From Cliona cf. orientalis (lineage: Eukaryota > Porifera > Demospongiae > Clionaida > Clionaidae): a stretch of DNA of 64,000 nt. The stretch is from contig OZ005697.1 in NCBI GenBank assembly GCA_963930775.1, forward strand, positions 5,602,292 through 5,666,291, in the 5' to 3' direction. Below are positions 17,797-64,000 of this stretch, piece after piece. Under the pieces are notes generated by a model, which made no database searches, was not told the DNA's origin, and worked only from the letters and a program-made list of their open reading frames with translations. Position numbers and translations under genes: made by a program. Each line of letters opens with the position of its first letter. Within the stretch, counting starts at the first letter, position 1.

Positions 17797-18971
17797 TTAA
17801 TGCGTATAAAGTGTGTATGCTGTAGGAACACTCCCTGTTCTTTGCCAGGTTGGAGGGGGAGCATGTGGTGAAGGCACACCATTGGTGAGCAGTGGTGGGC
17901 TGATTGTATGCTGAACGGAATGGGTGGCTAGTGGAGATGGAATGTTCACCTGTCTTTGTGACTGACACATACTTGACCCACTAACAGGGCAAGTGGTTTG
18001 CTGCTGCTGCTGCTGCACGCTGACTGGAGGAGACATGCGTGCATAAACGGCTACTGAGGAGTCACTGTTTGTTCTTGTCAGAGGAGGGGGTCGGGTTGCA
18101 AGACCTGTGGGCTGGCAGGTGTGAGCTGGGAAGTAGGGAGGACTGTGATTGTCTGATTCTGAAGTACTATAGTCGGTTGAGCTCGGGTCCTGTGGGAATG
18201 AAATATGGAAAGAAATGATCAGTTAAATGGGCATTTTCAAGTGTATGGTTTATTATACTGCTGATACATAAACATAGCACATGCAACAAGGCCAAAGACT
18301 AAACACTGCTCTAGTGCCAACACACTTATCTACTTAGGATCTATTCATGCACAGGTGCACAAATATTAATATCTTACCGTAGTGATGCATGACTGGGGAA
18401 TCCTGTAAGGCGAAAACGCAGAGAATTCGGGCATCTCAGCCTTCACATGGTAACCACCATTTATCTGCATGTATCCGTCACTCATTGGAGCTGGGTACAA
18501 CTGCAATTGTACATCTTCACCTTGGATAGCATGTGTATTATGTAGAAGTGACACGAGATCTTGTATGTAAGTGCACGCAAGTCTCAACGTGTCTATTTTC
18601 GAGAGTTTTCTGTTTGAAGGATAAGTGGGTACGAGCTCTCTGAGTTGATCAAACGCCGAGTTGACAGTGTGCATCCTTTTTCTCTCTCTTTTGTTCGCTG
18701 CAATCCTTTTAATCTTTTTCTGTACGAATGTCTCCTCGTTGTCGTACTCGCCATTGCTTTCATCTGAGCTGGTGCATGTGCTACCGCCAGGACTTCGGTC
18801 GGTATAGGGTGCATTTCGCTGTCTGTTGGCCTTGTTGCAAGCCCTTCTCATCTTAGGAGACTTGGGAGATCCACTCTCTCTCTTGATGCCTGCACCCGGT
18901 TCTTTTGGAGATGCGCAGAGTGGTGCTTGCTGTGCAGAAGTGGACGTCGGTGAATCAGCCATTGTCAACAT
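17797..18971 (-). CDS. Group A bHLH transcription factor
   Basis: Two exons, 18971-18378 and 18189-17797, joined in phase 0 (328 residues). The bHLH domain is at about residues 86-143: basic region [14 protein letters not shown], helix 1 [13 protein letters not shown], helix 2 [20 protein letters not shown]. The ERxR motif that contacts the E-box and the KLSKxxTLRLA helix 2 place it in group A (atonal/neurogenin/twist-like superfamily), a DNA-binding nuclear dimer. I cannot assign the subfamily. The N-terminal part is Ser/Pro-rich with an acidic stretch; the C-terminal exon is Ser/Pro/Gln-rich with six consecutive Gln, like an activation domain. A second ATG lies three codons in. A TATA box lies 96 bp upstream. 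Retaining the intron would end the protein four codons after the splice point (VRY and a stop), a shorter 201-residue form. Confidence 0.9.
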
Positions 18972-19066
18972 TGTCGGTCTAACTAGCGCTCGTTAGCGTC
19001 GAAAGTGACTTTGCAGCCTGCTTGTTGCCAGAAGTGATGTTAGCCTCGGAGCTGAGAGCTCGCGGC

Positions 19067-34300: not shown

Positions 34301-36628
34301 ATCTTAAATTTCTTGTTTATACATTAATTTTGCTGCCCTATGCTTTTTCTACCAACTACGCCATGAGGTTCATTATATACCGTATAGTGGGAAACTTTGG
34401 CAGGGTTTTTAATTTGATAATTTGGTGAATTAGGTTATAGATCGCCAAATTTAAATTTCACCAATATCAATGGAGAGCTATTTTGTCAAATTTAATGCTC
34501 GCCAAAGTTAACCACTATAAGGTTACTGGGTATATCAATAGTAGGGGTTGAGATAAGATGATGCTATTACTGGTACGTTCTTACTGCTTCGTGAGAATAC
34601 ATGTAGGTCTAGCTATCATCGTTTCATTTGTAATTTATGTTCTACACATAGATACGTGCAATGTTATTCTAACATGCCGCGTCACTATTGAAACGACGTG
34701 CTGCACTGATGTGGGTGGGACTACATCTTCACACAAGACGAACTTCCACTGTTCTGATATATATTTCATGTATCACTTTATTATACATGTAGCTGAACAT
34801 ATTCGCTGGACAAACACTTCACCAAGCTTTTCACCTTTGGAGTACAGAAATGTTCGGTGGAAAAAAATACTTTAGCTACCGTAGTGAAGGACACTGTATC
34901 TTCCATGCAATCAATTAAGTACAGAACAAAAAATTCATGGGACAAAAATTTCAGTAACCAAAAGAGGTGGTAAAATTTTTCCTGGCGAAATTTCTGGCTA
35001 TACAGTACCTTGCAACTACATGTATCAAAGACTAGAGCTCTGTAGAGCACATACCCTGCACACACATTGTGCAATCTATAGATTTACTCTTGTGTGCATG
35101 GCTATAATTTTGTGAATTTCATGCAGACAAATAGTGGAAATGCTGCTTGCTTGTACTGTTGTAGTAGCTACAGCTACCGGGGGTCCCAATGTACAAAATG
35201 TACCAGACCTAGACTAGGAAGATATGAACTGATACCGCCTATATTTTGTTGTAATACATTATGATTAATTTTGGTTTCAGATTTTAGCCCCATCAGCGGA
35301 TCTGGATAATATAGCTATACTAGATGTCATGAACATTTAATTTTGACGATCTTTACCAGTCATACTATACTTGGCACTTAATCGTGCACATGAGCACAAA
35401 GCACAATAGCATGCATTATGCAGTGTGTAGGTACAGGCACTGTCGATAGGCATGGCTACGGTGGCCAACAAAAAGGTGACGATTGTAGACTGTATCCCTT
35501 GAAGCCAGTTTTTTGCTGAATTTGATTGATTAGTGAGTCCCTTGGATGCCTACATATCGAGGATTTTTGTGCTAACGACGACAATGATGACACAGCCGAT
35601 TGTTTTACCCCTTGCACATGCACGCGGGGTAATATCAAGGTGCTATATTATAACAATAGTGCACATACGTATGCAATAGAAAGAGAGAGGAGAGTGGGAC
35701 ACTAGTACATACCAAAGGTCAAATGCATATAAACGTGTCTGAGACAGCATATACTCAAGAAGTATGTGTAGTCACAAACTTACATGCATACACTGATGGA
35801 AGCATAATCTCAATAGCTGAGTGTAGCATTGACTTACTATAGTATGCACATTATACACTTTTTTACTTTGGAGATATGAACCATGCCAGGAAATAATATA
35901 TGCAGAGTGGTACACTCTCCTCTCTCTTCTGTTATGAGTTGGCACTAAATTATAGTGAGTGAGGCTTTCAAACCACATCCACAAACACACATGTATACAT
36001 GTGTATCATCATGTACATGTATAGCAGATTCTATTAGAGTGCTGGTACAGATGTAATCCAACATATGGCGGCCAAGCTTTCAGTGTGTTGCTACAGCTGA
36101 AGTTTTTGTCAACTTGCGTGGTCTTGGCTATGAACAGAGGGGGAGTGGTCTCTGTACCCAATGCGTATACGGTATATATGTACCCTTGTGCAGTGAGGGA
36201 TAACTCACACTGTGAGGTAATCTAGCGATGGTTGCATACGCCAGTGCCTGGGGAACAACCATCAGACCCACAGTCAGTCCAGCGATAATGTCAGCCAGCA
36301 GCCAGCGTGGATTGTACCTCACCAGCCACTTTATACAGGCAAACTTATCCAAAAGCCATGTCCCCTCAAAATAGTAAGGAAAGCACTCCAACAGCTCAAA
36401 TCTTTTATAGCCGACAGGTCTTGCAGCTCTTTTAGGAGTTGGAAGCCTGCACTTTCCTTCCGGGTTGTTGGGGTCAGAACAGCATGTGGCTTTCAAGCAG
36501 CCAAATACGCTAGTTTCGCCTCCTCTTATCCGCTCTTCCATAGCTTGATGCCTTCTCTGCTTTGACAGCAGCAAGGGACGACTTGTACCTGCTGAACAGC
36601 AAGTGTAGGAAAAGCAAACCTCCAGCAA
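22340..36628 (-). CDS. SLC26A11: SLC26A11-like anion/sulfate transporter with STAS domain
   Basis: Twenty-one phase-consistent exons (708 residues): 36628-36209, 33319-33091, 32504-32419, 32348-32269, 32207-32153, 32067-31968, 31899-31748, 31692-31620, 31557-31507, 30950-30890, 30601-30546, 30202-30062, 29965-29907, 29841-29770, 28984-28864, 28809-28742, 28677-28612, 27347-27269, 27237-27186, 23682-23636, 22398-22340. Family landmarks are NPRWLLADIIAGLTVGLMVV and PQALAYATIA in TM1-2, YGLYSAFMGCFVYTIFGTSK, TLGPTAI, SGFTSAAAITIAFGQVK, SFLESIAIAKAFA, SYPVTGSFSRTAVNAQSG and ARPRHQ before the STAS domain (about residues 546-656; VVVLDCKAMPEIDF). The order and text match human SLC26A11, a multi-pass anion transporter. 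One donor is weak (GTGATC after 32269). The last three exons, beyond STAS, are inferred from splice sites and phase. Another ATG 29 codons downstream is possible as the start. The gene is divergent with laminin. Confidence 0.88.
23683..27185. other. SLC26A11 intron, 3.5 kb
   Basis: No supported gene on either strand. Many overlapping short open frames (for example 24284-24613 and 26532-26894 plus) show no domain, no splice context and no recognisable motif. Confidence 0.5.
27738..28600. repeat. CA/CATG-rich low-complexity stretches in SLC26A11 introns
   Basis: CA and ACATGCAT words are concentrated at 27720-27780, 27930-27965 and 28490-28605, including about nine CA units near 28580. Open frames over them are repetitive artefacts on both strands. 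Confidence 0.7.
33320..36208. other. First intron of SLC26A11
   Basis: 2.9 kb between the first and second exons. No gene inside. It contains a MITE at 34378-34524 and a related sequence ending ctggctatacagtacc near 35010. Confidence 0.6.
34378..34524. mobile_element. MITE family D copy
   Basis: Left end taccgtatagtgggaaactt; right end gccaaagttaaccactata, an imperfect inverse. The interior has aatttgataatttggtgaatt and caccaatatc, AT-rich and partly palindromic. Related to 46426-46612, which shares the cgccaaa core and the terminus cccgctatgcagt. Confidence 0.65.
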
Positions 36629-36944
36629 ATCCGATCACTCTCAAAGCTACAGTGCGCCTCATATGGAAATAATTCATGAGCCCCGCCCATCACATGATGC
36701 TACAGAGCATGCGCGGACCATGCGCGGGCTCGCAAGTTCTATTGTTCACGCCCCCTCGTGCGGTAAGGGGCGTTGCTAGGTCTTGCAGAGTGGAGTAAGT
36801 AGTTCAGTGGTGGAAGGAGGGGCAGTGCAAATTTTCAAAGTGCAGGTGCATCATAATGGGAAAATCCACCTGATTCCAAGTATTAATTGGCTATAAAGAT
36901 ATTTGATTTCAAGTCACTAACTGCTGGAAAGTTTATAGAGAAGG
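36629..36944. promoter_or_regulatory. Bidirectional promoter of SLC26A11 and laminin
   Basis: The two ATGs are divergent with 316 bp between them. The region holds a GC box (ccccgccc, 36681-36688), two NRF1-like words (gcatgcgcgg and ccatgcgcgg, 36707-36728), a CCAAT box on the minus strand (attgg, 36886-36890) and TATAAAG at 36892-36898, about 47 bp before the laminin ATG. The SLC26A11 side has no TATA box. Sharing of elements is inferred from spacing. Confidence 0.6.
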
Positions 36945-39900
36945 ATGTCTCCAATCATCCTGCTGTTTGTACTGCTGACATCTCTTGCAGGCACATGTAC
37001 TGCTCAAACTGGGTGCACAGAGAATACAGGGTGCTTTCCACCCATTGGTAACCTTGCACTTGGGAGGTCTATCAATGCCTCTTCTACATGTAATAGTAAC
37101 AGTGAATATTGTGTCTTTCTTGCGGGATGCTCCCCTTGTTTACCAGACACTGTGAACTCACCAAGTAGTATTAATGATAACAACAATGACACATCTTGGT
37201 ATTCAGAAATTGGATCAGGCAGTCTACCAACTAGCCTACAAATAGACTTTGAGGCTCCAGTCCTATTTCAAGAGATGGCTATGGTTTGGCAGTCGGTGAG
37301 ACCTCGTACAATGTTGCTGGAGCGATCTCAGGACTTTGGGGCAACATGGCAGGTCTACAGATATTACTCCAGCAGCTGTTTAGACAGTTTCATGCTTCCC
37401 GATACACCTGTAACTGACTCATCTTTGTTTAACACCACTGTTCCCATCTGTACCAGCTCTCAGTCACAGCTATTACCATTTAGGAATGGATTGGTTAGTA
37501 AATAACCCACCCAGTGAAACCTCACTATAATGATCCAAATTAATAGCTAATGAGGTGATTCTCTTAAGGAGTGACCACTATAGTGAGATTTCGCTGTACC
37601 ATATCCACAAACTACAGTTGATAAAATTCATGCTATGAATAGTGATTACTATTGATGGCATGTTATCATGAATGTGAATAGCCAACTGTGTGTGGCTCAA
37701 CTTTTGTACTTCTATTATGCAGGTAACTTTTTCAACCTCCCAGCATCTCTTACCAGATGCCATAGATGCCACTAACTACCGTACAGTAACAAACCTCAGG
37801 GTACAGTTTATTGATCTGTTTATAGAACTACTGATCTCTGCACCAGGCAATCAATATTTTTCTGTATCTGAGTGGTTGATTTGGGGATCATGTTCATGCA
37901 ATGGCCATGCTGTTCTCTGTGTTCCTGCAAATGGTGAAGTAATGACAGCAAACAAGGTAACAATAATCACGATCACATTATATCACTGCCATTATCCTTG
38001 ATGCTCTCTGCTATCTGTTAAATCAAGGAGGTGTACACTGGATGCTCCTGTGAGCATAGCACTGAAGGGGATAGCTGTGAAATGTGTCAGATGGGATTTA
38101 ATAGTGTCCCATGGATGTCTGGAACACCGTCAGCTGCAAATCAATGTCAAGGTACACCGCAACTCAACATTGTGATTTGAATTATGACATTGTGTATCTC
38201 ACTTTATAGAATGCATGTGCAATGGACATGCAAATGATTGTGAATATAACACAACTCAGTCTTCAGCTGTTTGTCTAAATTGCATGGATAATACTACTGG
38301 CAACAACTGTGAGCTGTGCTTGCCAGGATTTTATCAAGATGAAAATGTACTTTTAAATGATCCTGCCATTTGCATTCGTAAGTTCATTCTCACCTTATTG
38401 TTGTAGTTAATTGAGTCATTAATGTAATCTCTTATAACAGCATGTGATTGTAGTGTAGCAGGCATTATGGACAATGGGCTGTGTGACAGCAGTGGTCAGT
38501 GTAACTGTAAGGCTAATGTGGATGACACCTCCTTAAGTTGTAGTCAATGCCGAGATGGCTATTGGAATCTTACTGAGCACAATCCAGATGGGTGTCAAGG
38601 TAATAACCAATGTTTATTGTGTCTATACTATCGCATGACATTGTATGATTGTCCAGTTTGTGATTGCAACATGGATGGAAGTATTCTTGCCGCTAATGGA
38701 CTTCCGCTCTGTGTCAGAGACACTGGAGAGTGTCTTTGTCGTGATGGTGCCACTGGAAGCCAATGTGAAGGATGCATGGTTAGGCAGAATCAAAATAGTA
38801 ATAATAATAATATTGCATGTAATGATGGTTGGCATCTACTTCTCCATACAGGATGGGTTTTATGACATTAGTGCAGGCTGCCTTCCCTGTGAATGTAATC
38901 AGGGTGGTTCTACCAGCCAAGTCTGTGATCAAAACTCTGCAAATGCTCAGTGTCCTTGCATTCCTGATGTTGAATCTACTACCTGTCGCATGCCTGTTGC
39001 AGGCTACTACTCCAGAGCTCTTGATGATCTCATCTTTGAAGCGGAAGAAGCCACTCTAGCAGGGGTATGTTATGTCATCATCATTCTGTGATCAGAATAA
39101 TTATGTGAACACTGTTGCATAATATATACACAGGGCTCAACTGTTTTTATTCCAACACCTGGAAGTGTGGGGCCATTCACTGGCGGGGCATACGTCTCTT
39201 TGGTATCGTTTAGCAGTGTGCAGTTCATATTTACTGCTCCTAAAAATGATCAATATGAGCTAATTATCAGATATGAGGTATTCTTTGCATTCTTGCATTC
39301 ATTCATGTCTTTAAATGAGGTATTTTGATTCACAGGCATTATCATCATCAGTAGATAGCATCACCTTTTCATTGATTAGCCTGACTCCAGTAACTTTCGA
39401 TCTCAATTGTGATACAACTTCCAGTATGAATGTGTCCCGATTCAACTTTGCTAGTCGGCTTCCACAGTCACGATTTTATTCTATCGTATCTGTGTGCTTA
39501 AGTAGAGATATTCCTTATCAGCTGACAGTTGAAGATACCAGCTTTGCACAGACTGGATGGCTAATTGACTCTGTAAGTACTCCCCCCACAATGATTACAT
39601 ATTACATGCACATTAAATTTTTTCATATACTTCAGCTTCTTCTACTGCCAGACTTTAGTGCCACAAGTACCTACTATGCCAGCCAGAGTGCACAGGATCA
39701 GCAGACCATCATTGAGCCATGCCTACCTCGTCAAGCTCCTGCAAATCCAATTCTTCTCCCAGAGTGTGAAGAACCAACATTCACACTCTCCACTGAGTTT
39801 TATGGATCTGTTTTCGGTATAATTTCCCTGTTAGAGTTCTTGCATTGATATCTCTATCATTCTTTAGCCTGTGACTGTGGCTTGAACTCGACTGACTGCT

Positions 39901-42900
39901 ATCGCTACAGTGGTAGTTGTACTTGTCCGAGTGGGGTCACTGGAAGTCGTTGTGATCTGTGCATTGAAGGAATGTTTAATTTATCTGACTCAGGATGCCA
40001 GCGTAAGTTTGATAAGTGGTGACTGACCATAATGAGACTGGGAGGATCTAGGAATAGGGACGTGAAATTTCCACAATGAATGCGTTTGCTCTCTGTTTTG
40101 TTTATTGTCATCACCTAGCAACCACCCCATTCCCCATTATTCATAATATTATTAAATTTTAACTGTCACAATACATGGAACAGGTAAGTTGCTGTAATAC
40201 CAAAATTTAATTATGGAATAGGGAGACACTGTGCATATCCATGCTCAACACCATGCAGTGTATACATGTAGGATATGAATGTGCCTTTGATTGGTAAACA
40301 ATTGTTGTACATAATCTCCTATAATCAGGCTCAAGTTTGTTGGTCAGCAAAGATGTGTACTACAAAGTACATATTGATTGTGCATTCTATATAATGTTAT
40401 ACCCCAACTTTATCACTTTAGCTTGTGATTGTGATTCAGTGGGGTCCGTCAATCAAATTTGTGATCAAGTTAGTGGAAACTGTTCATGTCAGCCAGGAGT
40501 TGGGGGACGAAGGTGTGATCAGTGCCTTCCTGGATTCTACAGCTTGAGTGCTACTGGCTGTAGTCCTTGTCAGTGCTCAGAGTACGCTCTCCAGGATAGC
40601 TGTGACTCCCAAGGACAGTGCACATGCCCATATGGAGTCACTGGACTGACCTGTGACCAATGCCAGTCGAACTTTTACAACATATCCATTGATGGCTGTA
40701 CTCCTTGCAATTGTGATCTCTCTGGGAGTTTCTCCAGTGCATGTGATACCACTACAGGGCAATGCACTTGTGTTGGTAGTACTGTTGGGAGGAACTGCAG
40801 TATGTGTCCTGATGGATTCTTCCGAACTGGCGGTCTGGTCCGTGATCAGTGTGTGAGGTGCAGTTGTATGGGACAGACAAGCGAGTGTGTGGCAGACAAT
40901 GCAAGCTATGGGCTGGGGTTGATACTCTCCAACTTTTCAATGTTGTGCCAAGACACTCCCATTGCATGTGATGATGGTTGGACCATACTAACAGCTGACG
41001 GAGAACAAGCTGCCCCCTATGGTCCAAGGTAAATCATATTGTTTCTTTTGTCTAGCGTTAATTCATATCTGATCCTAGTAATGCTGATGGATTGGGCTAC
41101 ATTTTGCTAATTAATCACATGCCAATGTTGTATGCACCTGAGAATTATCTGGGTGACCGCCTGGCAACTTATGGACTGACATTCTCAGCTTTCCTCCGAA
41201 TCTCAAATACAGGAGCACTCAATGTCAACACAACTATTATCAGGTTAAGTGATCGTCATTCTTAGTGGTGCATATTAACGGTATAATTATATTTGCTGCA
41301 GGATTATTGGTTCAAACTTTGATCAAGAACTCATAGGAATATTCCCCCCTCCGACTGTCACACTAAATGGATTTGGAGCAGAAAGATACCTGGAATATAC
41401 TGTATGCGGCATCATATTACTCTAGTGTGTGCTAAATAACTAACTTTTGCTAATGTAGATTCAATTTGTGGAGGACAATTGGCATGTTGGAGGTTCTGCT
41501 GGGCCCACTGCTACATTTGCTCAGTTTATAACTGTTCTATCAAACCTCACAGAACTAAGTTTCTCAGCACAGTATACAGAGGTACGTTTCCATGGTATAT
41601 TGTGTTGCTACTTTACTTCCATATAATTGAGTTCTTTGTATTCAGGATATCATAGAGTTTGTCCACATTGTAAATATTTCTCTGCAATCTCTGCTACCTA
41701 TGGAGTCATTCCTAAATTCCACTCTCAATTTCTCCACTCCAATCGTTCCTATTCTCTACCCTTTCCCAACTGAAGACTGCCAGTGTCCCGAGGCTTACAC
41801 TGGTCTTTCCTGTGAAGAGTGCAGTCAGGGTTTTGCCAGGTCTTCTGGACTCAACACGGATTCTTGTGTCAGATGTGATTGCAATAATCAAACTCTAGAC
41901 TGTGACACAGTTACTGGAAGTTGCTTTAACTGTCAAGGAAACACTGAAGGCGATCGCTGTGAGCGTTGTATTCCTGGTTACTACGGAGATCCAACCATAA
42001 ACATTGACTGTCTTCCGTGTCAGTGCCCTCTTCTCAACAATAATTTTAGCCCAACCTGCTTTCTAAATGAGACAGATGGACAGTCAACATGTGATGATTG
42101 TGCTCAGGGTTATACTGGAAGAAACTGTGAAGTTTGTATGGATGGATACTTTGGGAGTCCTTTAGTAAGTATTTCTTTTCTTTTTCTTCTATACTAAAGT
42201 GATCATCATACACATGCACCACATTAGATGGGTCATTGTACAACATGTGAGTGTAATGGCAATATTGATCCTGCCCTGGGACCTATCTGTGACACTACCA
42301 TTGGCCAGTGTTTGAATTGTCTCAATAATACAATGGGCTTTGAATGTGAACTTTGCCTACCAGGATACTTTGGTGATCCACAGATTGGAAAACCATGCCT
42401 GCGTAAGTTAACACTATACACTACTTAGACTTTTATATTATAATACTATGAAATGTTGGAGCAGCTTGTCAATGTCATCCTGGGGGCAGTGTTGGTGATT
42501 GTGATTCTCTGTTTGGAACATGTGTCTGTCAACCTGGCGCAACAGGACAATTTTGCAATGAGTGCATAGATGGCTACTGGGGAGTATCTCAGGGCTGCAT
42601 TCCCTGTGACTGTTGCACAGAGGGAACTATCAATGGCAGTAATGTGTGTGATAAGGTATACTACTATAAGCACATACATGATCATGATGTACTCTTGACT
42701 ACAATATTTATATTGTCTATGCAGGAAACAGGAGCATGCAGTTGCAAACTGAATGTAGGCAGTGATATGGACGATAAGTGTTGCAATTGCACTCCGGGCT
42801 ATTTTAATTTCACAGATCAAGGATGTCAAGGTGGGAAATCAAAATGATAGCTAATGATAATTGCATAGTATTGCGCTTTCAGCTTGCAACTGTAGTGCAC

Positions 42901-45454
42901 TAGCAGTGACTGAGGAGTGTGATCCAGTCTCAGGAGCATGTATCTGTCAGGATGGAGCTCGGGGACTCAAGTGTGATGATTGTGAATATGGATACACAGG
43001 TATGTTACATTTGATAGATATTACTTATTAATGATACAAGTTCGATGCAGGTCAAGTGCCTGTTTGCGAGCGCTGTCATGATTGCTTCTTTCAGTGGGAT
43101 GACATCATCAATGACTTAAGACAAAGAATTGTTCGTCTTCATTCACAAACTATTTCTTTGACACAGTTTTATTTTGGTAATTATACTGTGGATGAGATAA
43201 CCCTGGAGGTCAATCAGCTTTTAGCTGACCTTCAACAAGCAAACGAATCATTAAACACCATCAATCTCCAAGAAAGCTCTCTTGAAGAACTGCAGCAAAC
43301 CATCATCAATGTAAGTCTGTTTCACAAGATGACTACTAGCCTAGTAATAACAATTGTTAATTCTGTCCCTTTTGTAGTTAAATATCACCATAAATGGATA
43401 CTCTGTACGAGTTGAAACTATTGAGAATGAGTTAGTTGATGCTCAGCGTATGCTAGATACTGCCATTGGATATGATGGAACTGTGAATATGACTTCTGTG
43501 GCTGAGCTAATGTCACAATTATCAGCTATAAATTCCACAATAGCCCGTCACCTTTACACAGCCAACAGAACAACTATACTTATTCTAGAGGAACAGCAGA
43601 TGATTACCAACGTTTGGGGAGAGCTGAACATGTTAGATGAACTAGCACAAGAGCTATTTGTCAACTTGACTCTTGCAAGGAATAGCACAGAAGAAGCTGA
43701 AATATTAATACAGAGATTCAATGAATCTTATACTCTGCTAAGAAGAAACCTAAGCTCATTGGCTGTGCATAATAGTACGCTTAGTGATCAGATTCTATTG
43801 ATAAATCAGATTGCTAGCAATGCCTCCATGTATCTTGAAAATGTCGAGGCTGATTTTTACTCTTTGGTAACTGACGTTAATGCAAGTGTAGCAGTAGCAA
43901 ATTCAGTGCTATTAGCGGCAATAGATTTGAACACTACCATCAGTGAAACACAATCAGCTGCTCAAATGACACTGGACAGTGTAAATAGATTACTGGTAAG
44001 TCTTTCTATAATTTGCAATTACTGGCTATATTATCACTAATGCTCTGATTGATTATTGTTATAGAGCCTCATCATTAACAGCACAACTGAAGCCAACTCA
44101 ACATTGAATAACATTGTTGATACTCGTGCGCTGACGGACCTAATTGCTCTGAACCTTACACAGACCAAGGCTGTTGTTGAGAGGATCCTTAACTTAAGCA
44201 TCAGTTTCAGTATTGGAGAAGCAGAGGCTCTTGCACGGCAGATCAATGATACCATCCTACCTCCTGAAGTAGTGAGAGAAATTGTCCAGAATGCAACAAT
44301 TGTAAAGCAGGTTGCCAATCGAACACTGGAAACAGCATTGGAGGCAAGGTAAATGTAAATGAAGCAAAATGTAATTACGTATGATACAGCTAGTAGATCA
44401 TGTCACATTTATACCTTTCAATATTAATTTGAATAGTGCCTCAGCAATGGAAGTGGGGTCACTTGCACAAGAGCTGCAAGACAATATAGGCAGTACAAAC
44501 ATGATTCAACAGCAAGTCACTGAAAGTCTCGCACTGTTGGAGGACAGTGTTCAGGAAACAGAAGAGCATATTGAGCAGGTAGGAAATATTATTAATTACC
44601 TGCAGTAGTTCAGCAATAATGGTGCAATCATATCCAGCTTAATGAAAATGCAACAGAAATCAATACTGCATTTGAACGAGCTGAAGAGATCTATGCTAAT
44701 GCAGCCAATAATATTCAGTTTATAAGGGAACTGGGCATGAACAACACAGCAAGAGCTTCAGATGTCCTTACTCAAGCAACAGACATCGCAAATCAAGCAC
44801 AGGAGAGTCAGAATGTGAGTGGATTTATGAGCTCAAGTGCAGTGGTCACTCACTACTTGTGATCCCACACACAGGGTATAGATCAGACAATAGAGGACTA
44901 TAGGGATATTGATTCCAGGATTGATGCTGCACAAGTGGTGGCTGAGTCAACACATACTACTGCATTAGACCTGCAGTCTAGAGCAGAAACCCTAAACACT
45001 GAAGCAAAGCAAATATCATTAGAGGACCTATTAGGTAAGCAGAGGTATAGGTTAGAGTTAATGATAGTACGGAGGTGACCCAGAAAATTTTCGGGGTATC
45101 TTGATACTAGGGGTGGCTGATAATAGGCACCAACCAATGCTAAGAGTGGCTGTTATGGTACTATAACCAATGTTAAGAGCACAGTGAGTGGCTGGCTACT
45201 AGCTAAGCAATAGCATATCATCTCCCACCCCCTATAGTAATGAGTGGGCATGGATGGGTAACGAATAACTAGCCTTGTTGGTGATCATAGTATTCTTTGA
45301 TTATCTAGATCTCTTGCAACGATACAATGATGAGACAGCTCAAGTGGTCAGATTGAGAGAACAGGTCAACCAACTAGAGCAAAGACTACGAGTCTTGACC
45401 GAGTCTTTCGAAAAAGCATCACAAAGACTACAAATATGTTATAAAACTCCATAA
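36945..45454 (+). CDS. Laminin chain with beta- and gamma-type domains
   Basis: Twenty-seven phase-consistent exons give 2051 residues: 36945-37493, 37723-37956, 38028-38151, 38210-38377, 38441-38599, 38657-38778, 38852-39064, 39134-39277, 39336-39572, 39636-39816, 39868-40002, 40422-41028, 41079-41243, 41302-41401, 41459-41581, 41646-42164, 42228-42402, 42465-42655, 42725-42830, 42883-42999, 43051-43310, 43378-43995, 44065-44348, 44437-44578, 44638-44814, 44875-45034, 45309-45454. Order: signal peptide (1-20), laminin N-terminal domain VI (to about 255; LLERSQDFGATWQVYRYYS), EGF-like LE repeats, domain IV type B (about 500-715; YELIIRYE, GWLIDSLLLLPDF), LE repeats, domain IV type A (about 945-1130; DGWTI, GYILLINHMPMLYAP), LE repeats, coil from about 1460 (CHDCFFQWDDIINDL) to the C-terminus CYKTP. 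It has no G domains. It is a secreted, N-glycosylated basement-membrane type subunit that would trimerise through the coil. The exon 3 acceptor could be three bases later. I avoid a vertebrate symbol because the architecture is mixed. Confidence 0.93.
37511..37597. mobile_element. Small TIR element in laminin intron 1
   Basis: The left arm cagtgaaacctcactata and the right arm tatagtgagatttcgctgta are inverse complements with few mismatches, separated by about 50 bp. No coding capacity; a MITE or a solo hairpin. Confidence 0.65.
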
Positions 45455-62904: not shown

Positions 62905-64000
62905 ATGGCATTGATTTCATTGAATATTGAGATTTTGAAATACAGCAGCACAGTGACAATGCAGGTGGGTGAATTCAATTCTTTAATAATGGAAGCGAAA
63001 CTGGATCATACACCCATACACTTTTAGTTTGATGGCAGTACACTGGTCTGTGATATTCATCAATACCTTTGTGAAAGACTGCCTTACATCGATCAAAGAC
63101 AGTGTAAGCAGATAAGTATTACACGATTGAATCAAAACTTGTATGGTGTCAGATGCATAAAAATTGTGTGAATCATGGCATACTATATAGCTAGCTAGCA
63201 AACATAAGTGTTGAACTAGTTAACTTGCATAGGTTGTTTCTTCCCCTCCCTCAGAGTCTCCCACCAACACAGCTAAAATATATCATACATTTTTGTTTCA
63301 TACTCCACATAGTTAATGATCATGGTCTGTTTAAGCCAGATGAAGGCTCAACTATAGGATGCTGGTTGAATGAAGAGAGGACACTGGAGCACTACAATCT
63401 CAAATCAGGAGACATGCTTCAGTACAAAAGCAAATTTCGCCTGCTTCGTGTGAAAACACTGGATGAGTCAGTAAAAACATTACAGGTGGATGAAAGTCAG
63501 ACTGTGGCCGAGCTGGTCAAGGCAGTGTGTACAAAGATTGGTAAGGCTAGAACAATGGATATTAATCTTGCACAATGGGACACTATAATATTATTAACGC
63601 TTCAGTGCATGCACTATATTATGCACAATAAATGTGGATACAACATAGTTATACAGTACAGATAATCCACATGAAATTCTGAGCTTGTAGTATACACAGG
63701 AGTGCATAAATTTAACTTTAATCGTAGATAATAATTTTATTATAGCAGTACTGATGACTATATATATGTTGTGGTGGTAGCAGCAGCCATGCATATAATA
63801 CACAATGGATACGGTATAATAATACTAGCTATTTTGCTGCTGTACTCAGATTGGTTAATGGTACATTGATGGAATGGATGCTTATGAATCCACCCAATCC
63901 CCTCAGTACGATTTACTGGAAATTATGGCAATAATATTATTAACGGATCAACCATACAGGTCTCTACAATCCAGAAAAATTTTCATTTACAATGGATGAC
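62905..64000 (+). CDS. TLN: Talin, N-terminal FERM F0-F1 (3' truncated by window)
   Basis: Exons 62905-62964, 63028-63103, 63313-63540 and 63960 onward, all phase-consistent (135 residues visible). The start MALISLNIEILKYSSTVTMQ followed by FDGSTLVCDI corresponds to talin MVALSLKISI..VKTMQFEPSTMVYDA. The next exon (GCWLNEERTLEHYNLKSGDM, then LLRVKTLDESVKTLQVDESQ) covers the end of F0 and the start of F1 (human GIWLEAGKALDYYMLRNGDT; IRMLDGTVKTIMVDDSKT). The last visible exon starts GLYNPEKFSFTMDD. Talin couples integrin beta tails to actin at adhesions. The start was chosen because it aligns with the family start. The integrin-binding F3 and the rod lie beyond the window. Confidence 0.92.

Follow-up and report, generated by a model that had tools for sequence, protein, structure and literature searches.

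Laminin is a cell-anchoring protein that provides the first scaffold for the basement membranes of animals. In the sponge Cliona cf. orientalis, a laminin chain gene lies at positions 36945..45454, on the forward strand, of the 64,000-nucleotide stretch of contig OZ005697.1 (assembly GCA_963930775.1) that was analyzed here and is called the window below. Spliced by hand from the DNA, its 27 exons yield 6156 coding bases and a protein of 2051 amino acids (aa), with no in-frame stop until the end; all 26 introns are GT-AG and measure 50-419 bp. The coordinates and the 27 in-phase exons of the initial annotation were reproduced exactly by this re-splicing. The N-terminus resembles a signal peptide by eye, and the chain ends in CYKTP, four residues past its last Cys. 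The domain order is LN, LE1-5, LF (laminin IV type B), LE6-9, L4 (laminin IV type A, within LE10), LE11-16, and a coiled coil, i.e., LN-LE5-LF-LE4-L4-LE6-coil. Depending on its setting, a script for exon chaining found 22 to 25 of the 27 exons exactly (23 when set as for the paralog described below); the script was trained on this very gene and so provides a consistency check and no independent proof, and a laxer setting over-split the gene. Judged from splicing, Pfam profiles, and the paralog, the interval looks like one intact gene encoding a real laminin chain with both inserts, LF and L4.

Pfam profiles run on the spliced protein located Laminin_N (PF00055) at aa 30-235 (E 1.1e-32), LAMININ_IV_B (PF21199) at aa 510-671 (E 3.4e-9, 36.9 bits vs. 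a cut-off of 27), Laminin_B (PF00052) at aa 976-1102 (E 1.9e-9, 37.9 bits vs. 22.4), and EGF_laminin in 15 stretches (E 6.1e-89), all above cut-off, while Spectrin_3 and Endotoxin_C gave weak matches, both below it. The combination of type B and type A domains in one chain, as first proposed from the letters alone, was therefore confirmed by hidden Markov model profiles. On the DNA, LN occupies 37032..37878 (exons 1-2); LE1-LE5 (aa 240-505), delimited by Cys counts and LE starts, 37891..39010; LF (aa 506-709, exons 7-10) 39011..39816; LE6-LE9 (aa 711-901) 39868..40858; LE10, which is split by L4 between Cys3 and Cys4, 40859..41873, with the Pfam core of L4 at 41131-41690; and LE11-LE16 (aa 1164-1461), 41874..43064. 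The coiled coil (43065..45454, aa 1462-2051), identified by sequence comparison and Cys count, opens with the entry CERCHDCFFQWDDII. Beyond this entry, it holds one Cys (aa 2047) and no Cys-rich knob, which is a feature of the coil of vertebrate beta chains.

In laminins, LF follows a truncated LE that lacks Cys7-8, whereas L4 is inserted inside an LE, between its Cys3 and Cys4 (crystal-structure paper PMC5338690; this and the other papers are cited here for individual passages). LE5 has 6 Cys in the window chain as well as in the paralog, and L4 of the window chain interrupts LE10 between CSCMGQTSEC upstream and CQCPEAY downstream. LF and its flanking LE gave a single distinct match in PDB, 5LF2 (laminin beta-2 LE5-LF-LE6, E 2.2e-18), which spans query residues 2-281 of 281, the helical part included; the calcium-ligand positions E515, E517, and D649 align with 5LF2, as do, among the Cys of the two LF disulfides, C596 and C625, and C679/C694 are present slightly out of register. 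Neither the window L4 nor the C-terminal 484 residues of the coil matched PDB at E<=1 by phmmer. Because of the profile matches, the 5LF2 match, and these insertion features, we conclude that LF and L4 are both real and lie in one reading frame.

A paralogous laminin gene was found 221 kb upstream of the window gene, on the reverse strand of the same contig (C9:5404217-5417742), by an LN match with LF and L4 matches behind it. Exon chaining predicted 12 exons and 2030 aa comprising LN, LF, L4, and a coil. Pfam, applied to the first 1876 residues, detected LN (6.9e-37) and L4 (5.6e-15), with LF (4.5e-6, 26.7 bits) just below the cut-off of 27; in the genome search, the same LF reached 31.5 bits, over the cut-off. 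Both chains, the paralog being represented by its predicted model, follow one LE plan: five LE with the fifth truncated, LF, four LE, a split LE with L4, six LE, and the coil. Elsewhere, the counts are five (the fifth truncated), LF, two, and six in beta1, and four, a split LE with L4, and six in gamma1. Seven of the 11 paralog introns occupy an identical aligned position and phase to window introns, a number reached by 0 of 20000 uniform random placements, although this control flatters the result in that real introns favor LE borders. The LF and L4 domains of the two chains score no higher against each other than each does against human beta1 LF or gamma1 L4; for L4, the mutual score is 64, and that with gamma1 is 103-110.

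Concern had been raised about the junction between LF and L4, where an LF gene and an L4 gene might meet near 40.4 kb. This junction is intron 11 (40003..40421, forward strand), the longest intron of the gene at 419 bp. Reading exon 11 through into it meets a stop after 6 residues; the frame of exon 12 is open upstream to 40325 only and contains one in-frame ATG (40394), with no signal peptide visible by eye. One AATAAA/ATTAAA hexamer occurs in 39800-41000, at 40151, and the paralog has an intron at the matching position and phase. The early stop and the lack of a visible signal peptide thus lend no support to two genes meeting here. Mis-joining of exons into a chimeric model, which the initial annotation had considered unlikely, appears very unlikely from the comparison of the two genes, because the predicted model of the paralog on the same contig has the same domain order and LE counts and shares seven of its 11 introns.

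The LN domain separates the two chains. By phmmer against PDB, window LN matched netrin-4 (2.9e-24), beta-1 (1.1e-23), netrin-1 (5.6e-21), and gamma-1 (1.7e-12), followed among alpha chains by alpha5 (4.5e-10) and alpha1 (4.6e-5), whereas paralog LN matched netrin-1 (1.4e-41), gamma-1 (6.4e-32), and beta-1 (1.6e-15). An LN tree of 10 rows placed the window chain, a further sponge chain on contig C5, LAMB1, and netrin-4 on one side (94/93, just below the tool's star), and the paralog, weakly supported (73/73) and likewise short of the star, beside LAMC1 and netrin-1; sisterhood of window and paralog was rejected (p value of the approximately unbiased test, pAU, 0.001). The likeness of the coil entry to beta1, suggested earlier, was borne out, with z-scores of 23.5 with beta1 vs. 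10.2 with gamma1; those of the paralog entry were 5.5 and 10.0, and those of its coil tail 2.4 and 7.2, respectively. In all gamma chains, a Pro precedes the last Cys by three residues, and Glu stands third from the end of the gamma tail (PMC5343747). The window tail lacks this Pro, whose place in the tail was counted on one sequence, and the paralog has it (LPEGC); the Glu is found at neither chain end. A gamma-like C-terminus, which had been proposed for the window chain, must accordingly be abandoned. Of the half-beta, half-gamma character ascribed to this chain, what stands is the L4 insert, because LN and the coil entry read as beta and the C-terminus is not gamma-like.

Like beta1 and beta2, the window chain combines a beta-type LN, five LE with a truncated LE5, a compact LF with calcium-ligand positions, six LE before the coil, and the coil entry pattern CHxCFxxWDxII. 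Unlike beta1, which has two LE and no L4 between LF and the last six LE, it has four LE and a fifth that is split by L4, and it differs from vertebrate beta chains in its knobless coil and weakly similar tail. With gamma1, it has in common an L4 that splits an LE, then six LE and the coil; it departs from gamma1 in LN, coil entry, and C-terminus, in the presence of LF, and in the absence of the Pro before the last Cys and of the Glu tail.

Taken as one explanation, we consider it probable that the window chain is a non-alpha chain of the chimeric kind of sponges, of beta type by its LN, compact LF, and coil entry and with L4 kept, and that the paralog is of gamma type by its LN and coil tail, with LF kept. 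On this typing, reciprocal loss of the inserts elsewhere stands at about even odds. The ancestral beta/gamma arm would then have been LN-LE5-LF-LE4-L4-LE6-coil; after the beta/gamma duplication, the eumetazoan beta chain would have lost L4 and the gamma chain LF, and the lineage of this sponge would have kept both inserts in both chains. An ancestral two-insert arm with reciprocal loss is favored because the window chain types as beta and the paralog as gamma, both with LF and L4. A bolder form of this idea, to which we would give an even chance, is that the window chain is an unreduced beta laminin and no chimera, the beta/gamma split having preceded that between sponges and other animals, both chains then carrying LF and L4 within one LE frame and each losing a different insert in eumetazoans.

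The alternative that fares best is a sponge-specific pair, in which one chimeric chain, whether it originated in the sponge lineage or came down to it, was duplicated within sponges, so that window and paralog would be sisters and their likeness to beta and gamma would be convergence or chance. We compared these possibilities in four-row tests (window, paralog, beta1, and gamma1), and LN favored (window,beta1)(paralog,gamma1), leaving window+paralog with pAU 0.049 on the full alignment and 0.016-0.036 on gap-free columns under four models. The coil entry (first 110 residues) gave the former tree 0.93-0.94 and window+paralog 0.025; the coil tail pointed in the same direction as LN without significance (0.908 vs. 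0.099), and all parts except the coil, when joined, gave 0.66 vs. 0.37.

Several observations weigh against reading the window chain as beta and the paralog as gamma. The comparison chains are vertebrate only, the human sequences used in z-scores and trees were checked only in part against PDB, and the sponge rows of the LN tree are long branches, a caveat raised by the tool itself. The window coil tail is weakly beta-like (z 2.4 vs. 0.4 with gamma1), for the first five LE of the paralog, beta1 gives a higher score than gamma1 (z 57.6 vs. 33.1), and the whole coil of the paralog does not decide between the two. The last six LE are undecided between the trees, and LE1-2 lean toward window+paralog, with (window,beta1)(paralog,gamma1) at 0.05-0.20. 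The whole coil favors (window,paralog)(beta1,gamma1), with pAU 0.95-0.96 under LG+G4 and 0.82-0.94 under three other models, and (window,beta1)(paralog,gamma1) reaches only 0.04-0.20; with all parts joined, coil included, window+paralog is ahead by 0.77 vs. 0.23. In addition, the chain on C5, whose LN and coil likewise fall on the beta side and which, unlike the window chain, has a knob-like Cys insert, may instead be "the" beta, and trimer formation, secretion, and expression of the window chain are predictions.

When residues were shuffled within each coil, window+paralog won in two of three runs and in 15 of 20 runs (in 14 of these with both rivals below 0.05). Such a result was obtained in 0 of 20 runs each with shuffled LN and shuffled coil entries and in 1 of 20 with shuffled tails, this one for window+paralog. 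We read the window+paralog signal of the whole coil as a composition effect, the coil body supporting neither side, and whole-coil trees were set aside as evidence because shuffled coils mostly give the same tree. The seven shared introns and the location of both genes on one contig would suit a sponge-specific pair, but they fit an old duplication equally well, and the window and paralog L4 domains are more similar to gamma1 L4 than to each other. Given that LN and the coil entry reject sisterhood, we regard a duplication within sponges as possible but rather unlikely.

A lineage-specific fusion, in which a beta gene was joined to a gamma or alpha gene via exon shuffling, was offered by the initial annotation on an equal footing with an ancestral beta/gamma form. 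The latter has the better support, since the diverged paralog matches the window chain in architecture and LE counts and, for the most part, in its introns. Although the domain mixture itself suggests fusion and phase-1 introns at many LE borders would permit shuffling, an identical fusion, down to the LE counts, would be needed twice, in two diverged genes, and two such chains have been reported in each of glass sponges and Amphimedon (PMC10280926); fusion is thus improbable. The view that this is not a standard vertebrate architecture holds insofar as the chain mixes inserts that vertebrate beta and gamma chains keep apart, but not for alpha3 and alpha5, whose short arms carry an insert of ~580 residues, only the first ~200 of them weakly LF-like, and then L4, in the same order as here (PMC5338690). 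This order would agree with a reduced alpha chain of the alpha3/alpha5 type that lost its LG domains; however, the window chain has no LG and no alpha-type LN, its LN being nearest beta, its LF is of the compact beta form, its coil starts like beta1, and it ends four residues after the last Cys, so that such an origin is very improbable. Two adjacent genes or an assembly artefact taken for one gene can hardly be credited, as the length of intron 11 and the hexamer and ATG within it are outweighed by phase-matched splice sites, an intron 11 shared with the paralog, the early stop past exon 11, the lack of a visible signal peptide before exon 12, and published chains of the same kind in other sponges (PMC10280926).

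The genome (216.8 Mb, 149 contigs) was searched for further laminin genes. Of seven LN matches, at least two are probably exons of one gene. Two LF domains were detected, those of the window chain and the paralog; no third was found, but absence is not shown by this profile search, which missed the exon-split LF of the window itself. The corresponding L4 search detected one of four candidates and missed those of the window and C5. The laminin chain on C5, with a partial tandem copy (C5:1497249-1521551, L013-L016; the two adjacent loci resemble a tandem pair), has a beta-side LN (beta-1 2.1e-14 vs. gamma-1 4.6e-9), a coil nearest beta1 (z 16.5 vs. 4.5), and a Cys-rich insert that, flanks counted, aligns with the region of the beta knob (score 63, z 6.4). 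Its L4 lies in a separate open frame skipped by the predictor (PF00052, 25.1 bits vs. a cut-off of 22.4), and the genome LF profile search found no LF in it. This chain is of the gamma-like single-LamIVA type by its insert and of beta type by its LN and coil. An alpha-like chain on C14 shows LE repeats above cut-off (in L051), a coil read by eye, and LG matches over cut-off downstream; an LG-like frame within L051 was below cut-off, and none of the seven LN matches lies on C14, leaving an alpha LN unseen. The laminin set found here thus comprises two non-alpha chains with LF and L4 (window and paralog), a single-L4 chain (C5), and an alpha-like chain (C14).

Other candidates were rejected as laminin chains. 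On C15, considered as the site of an alpha chain, five LG domains come after EGF repeats instead of a laminin coil; the predicted exon upstream of them (C15:3936501-3944500, L050) exceeds 7 kb and is made up of EGF repeats, several of which are near-identical in tandem. The LN gene on C17 (C17:2045020-2076477, L017-L020) reads, in its predicted protein, as LN-LE-cadherin, a giant protein in which LN and LE repeats precede a very long cadherin-like run (by eye) and two predicted exons exceed 9 kb. That on C16 (C16:1967958-1989411, L024-L027) reads as usherin-like, with LN, LE repeats, two LG domains, and repeats that resemble FN3 by eye, and a further LN on C16 had no LE to be seen. The Laminin_II profile, matched in eight of 14 control genomes, found nothing above cut-off in this genome and is uninformative, and the Nidogen G2F profile matched neither here nor in any control genome. 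C4 collagen domains gave three matches on C1, from collagen IV or spongin.

Chimeric beta/gamma-like laminins have been reported in sponges, two each in glass sponges and Amphimedon, together with one alpha-like and one single-L4 chain (PMC10280926, which cites Fahey and Degnan 2012 for the chimeric chains). The present set, with two non-alpha beta/gamma-like chains, an alpha-like chain, and a single-L4 chain, resembles that of Oopsacas and Amphimedon when compared by description; by itself, although it is no taxonomic test, this likeness points to a probable sponge source. According to the passages concerned, no beta chain was identified in Amphimedon or glass sponges (PMC10280926), whereas alpha, beta, and gamma orthologues are listed for sponges elsewhere (PMC4582122), so that the literature is at odds over sponge beta chains. 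Unlike the former account, LN here reads as beta in the window chain and as gamma in the paralog. By its domains and by the chains found beside it, the window chain belongs to a kind already reported in sponges; what is added here is the putative assignment of this chain to beta and of its paralog to gamma, each having retained LF and L4. Reciprocal insert loss is not stated in passages of PMC5338690, PMC11260871, PMC5395295, PMC10280926, PMC4582122, PMC12549020, and PMC5343747; Fahey and Degnan (2012), the likeliest place for it, was outside our scope, and we do not claim that the idea is unpublished.

By analogy with vertebrate laminin, the window coil may pair with the gamma-type paralog and the C14 alpha-like chain to form a secreted heterotrimer, which would be locked by coil-entry Cys and, at the chain ends, by a disulfide between beta and gamma (window aa 2047 and the last Cys of the paralog). 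The LN tip of the window chain would join the LN tips of neighboring trimers into a sheet or lattice, with the LE repeats as spacers and the beta sandwiches of LF and L4 inserted into the arm. As the gamma-tail Glu is missing from both chain ends, we predict that integrin is either not bound or bound otherwise than in vertebrates, and receptors would have to be bound via LG or other sites. Within the window, a talin-type FERM F0 domain (63195-63662, forward strand; PF16511, 6.4e-15) apparently marks where a talin-like gene begins, 18 kb downstream of laminin, and therefore an integrin adaptor and laminin are near neighbors. Head to head with the laminin gene lies an open frame for the start of an SLC26-type sulfate transporter (36131-36634, reverse strand; PF00916, 1.2e-7), whose upstream end is ~310 bp from the laminin start codon. 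Farther away, an open frame of 208 codons (18369-18992, reverse strand) contains a basic helix-loop-helix (bHLH) domain (PF00010, 8.6e-23) and is possibly a single-exon bHLH factor.

If the chimeric chains of sponges are unreduced beta and gamma chains, laminin chains should be typed by LN and coil, and not by insert. True beta and gamma chains would then exist in sponges, at variance with passages of PMC10280926 but with a beta chain already listed in PMC4582122, and the published dispute over sponge beta chains could be settled. As the order of LF followed by L4 is seen in alpha3 and alpha5 too, alpha, beta, and gamma chains may all derive their arms from a single plan. The functions of LF and L4 could also be studied in an animal that has both on one chain.

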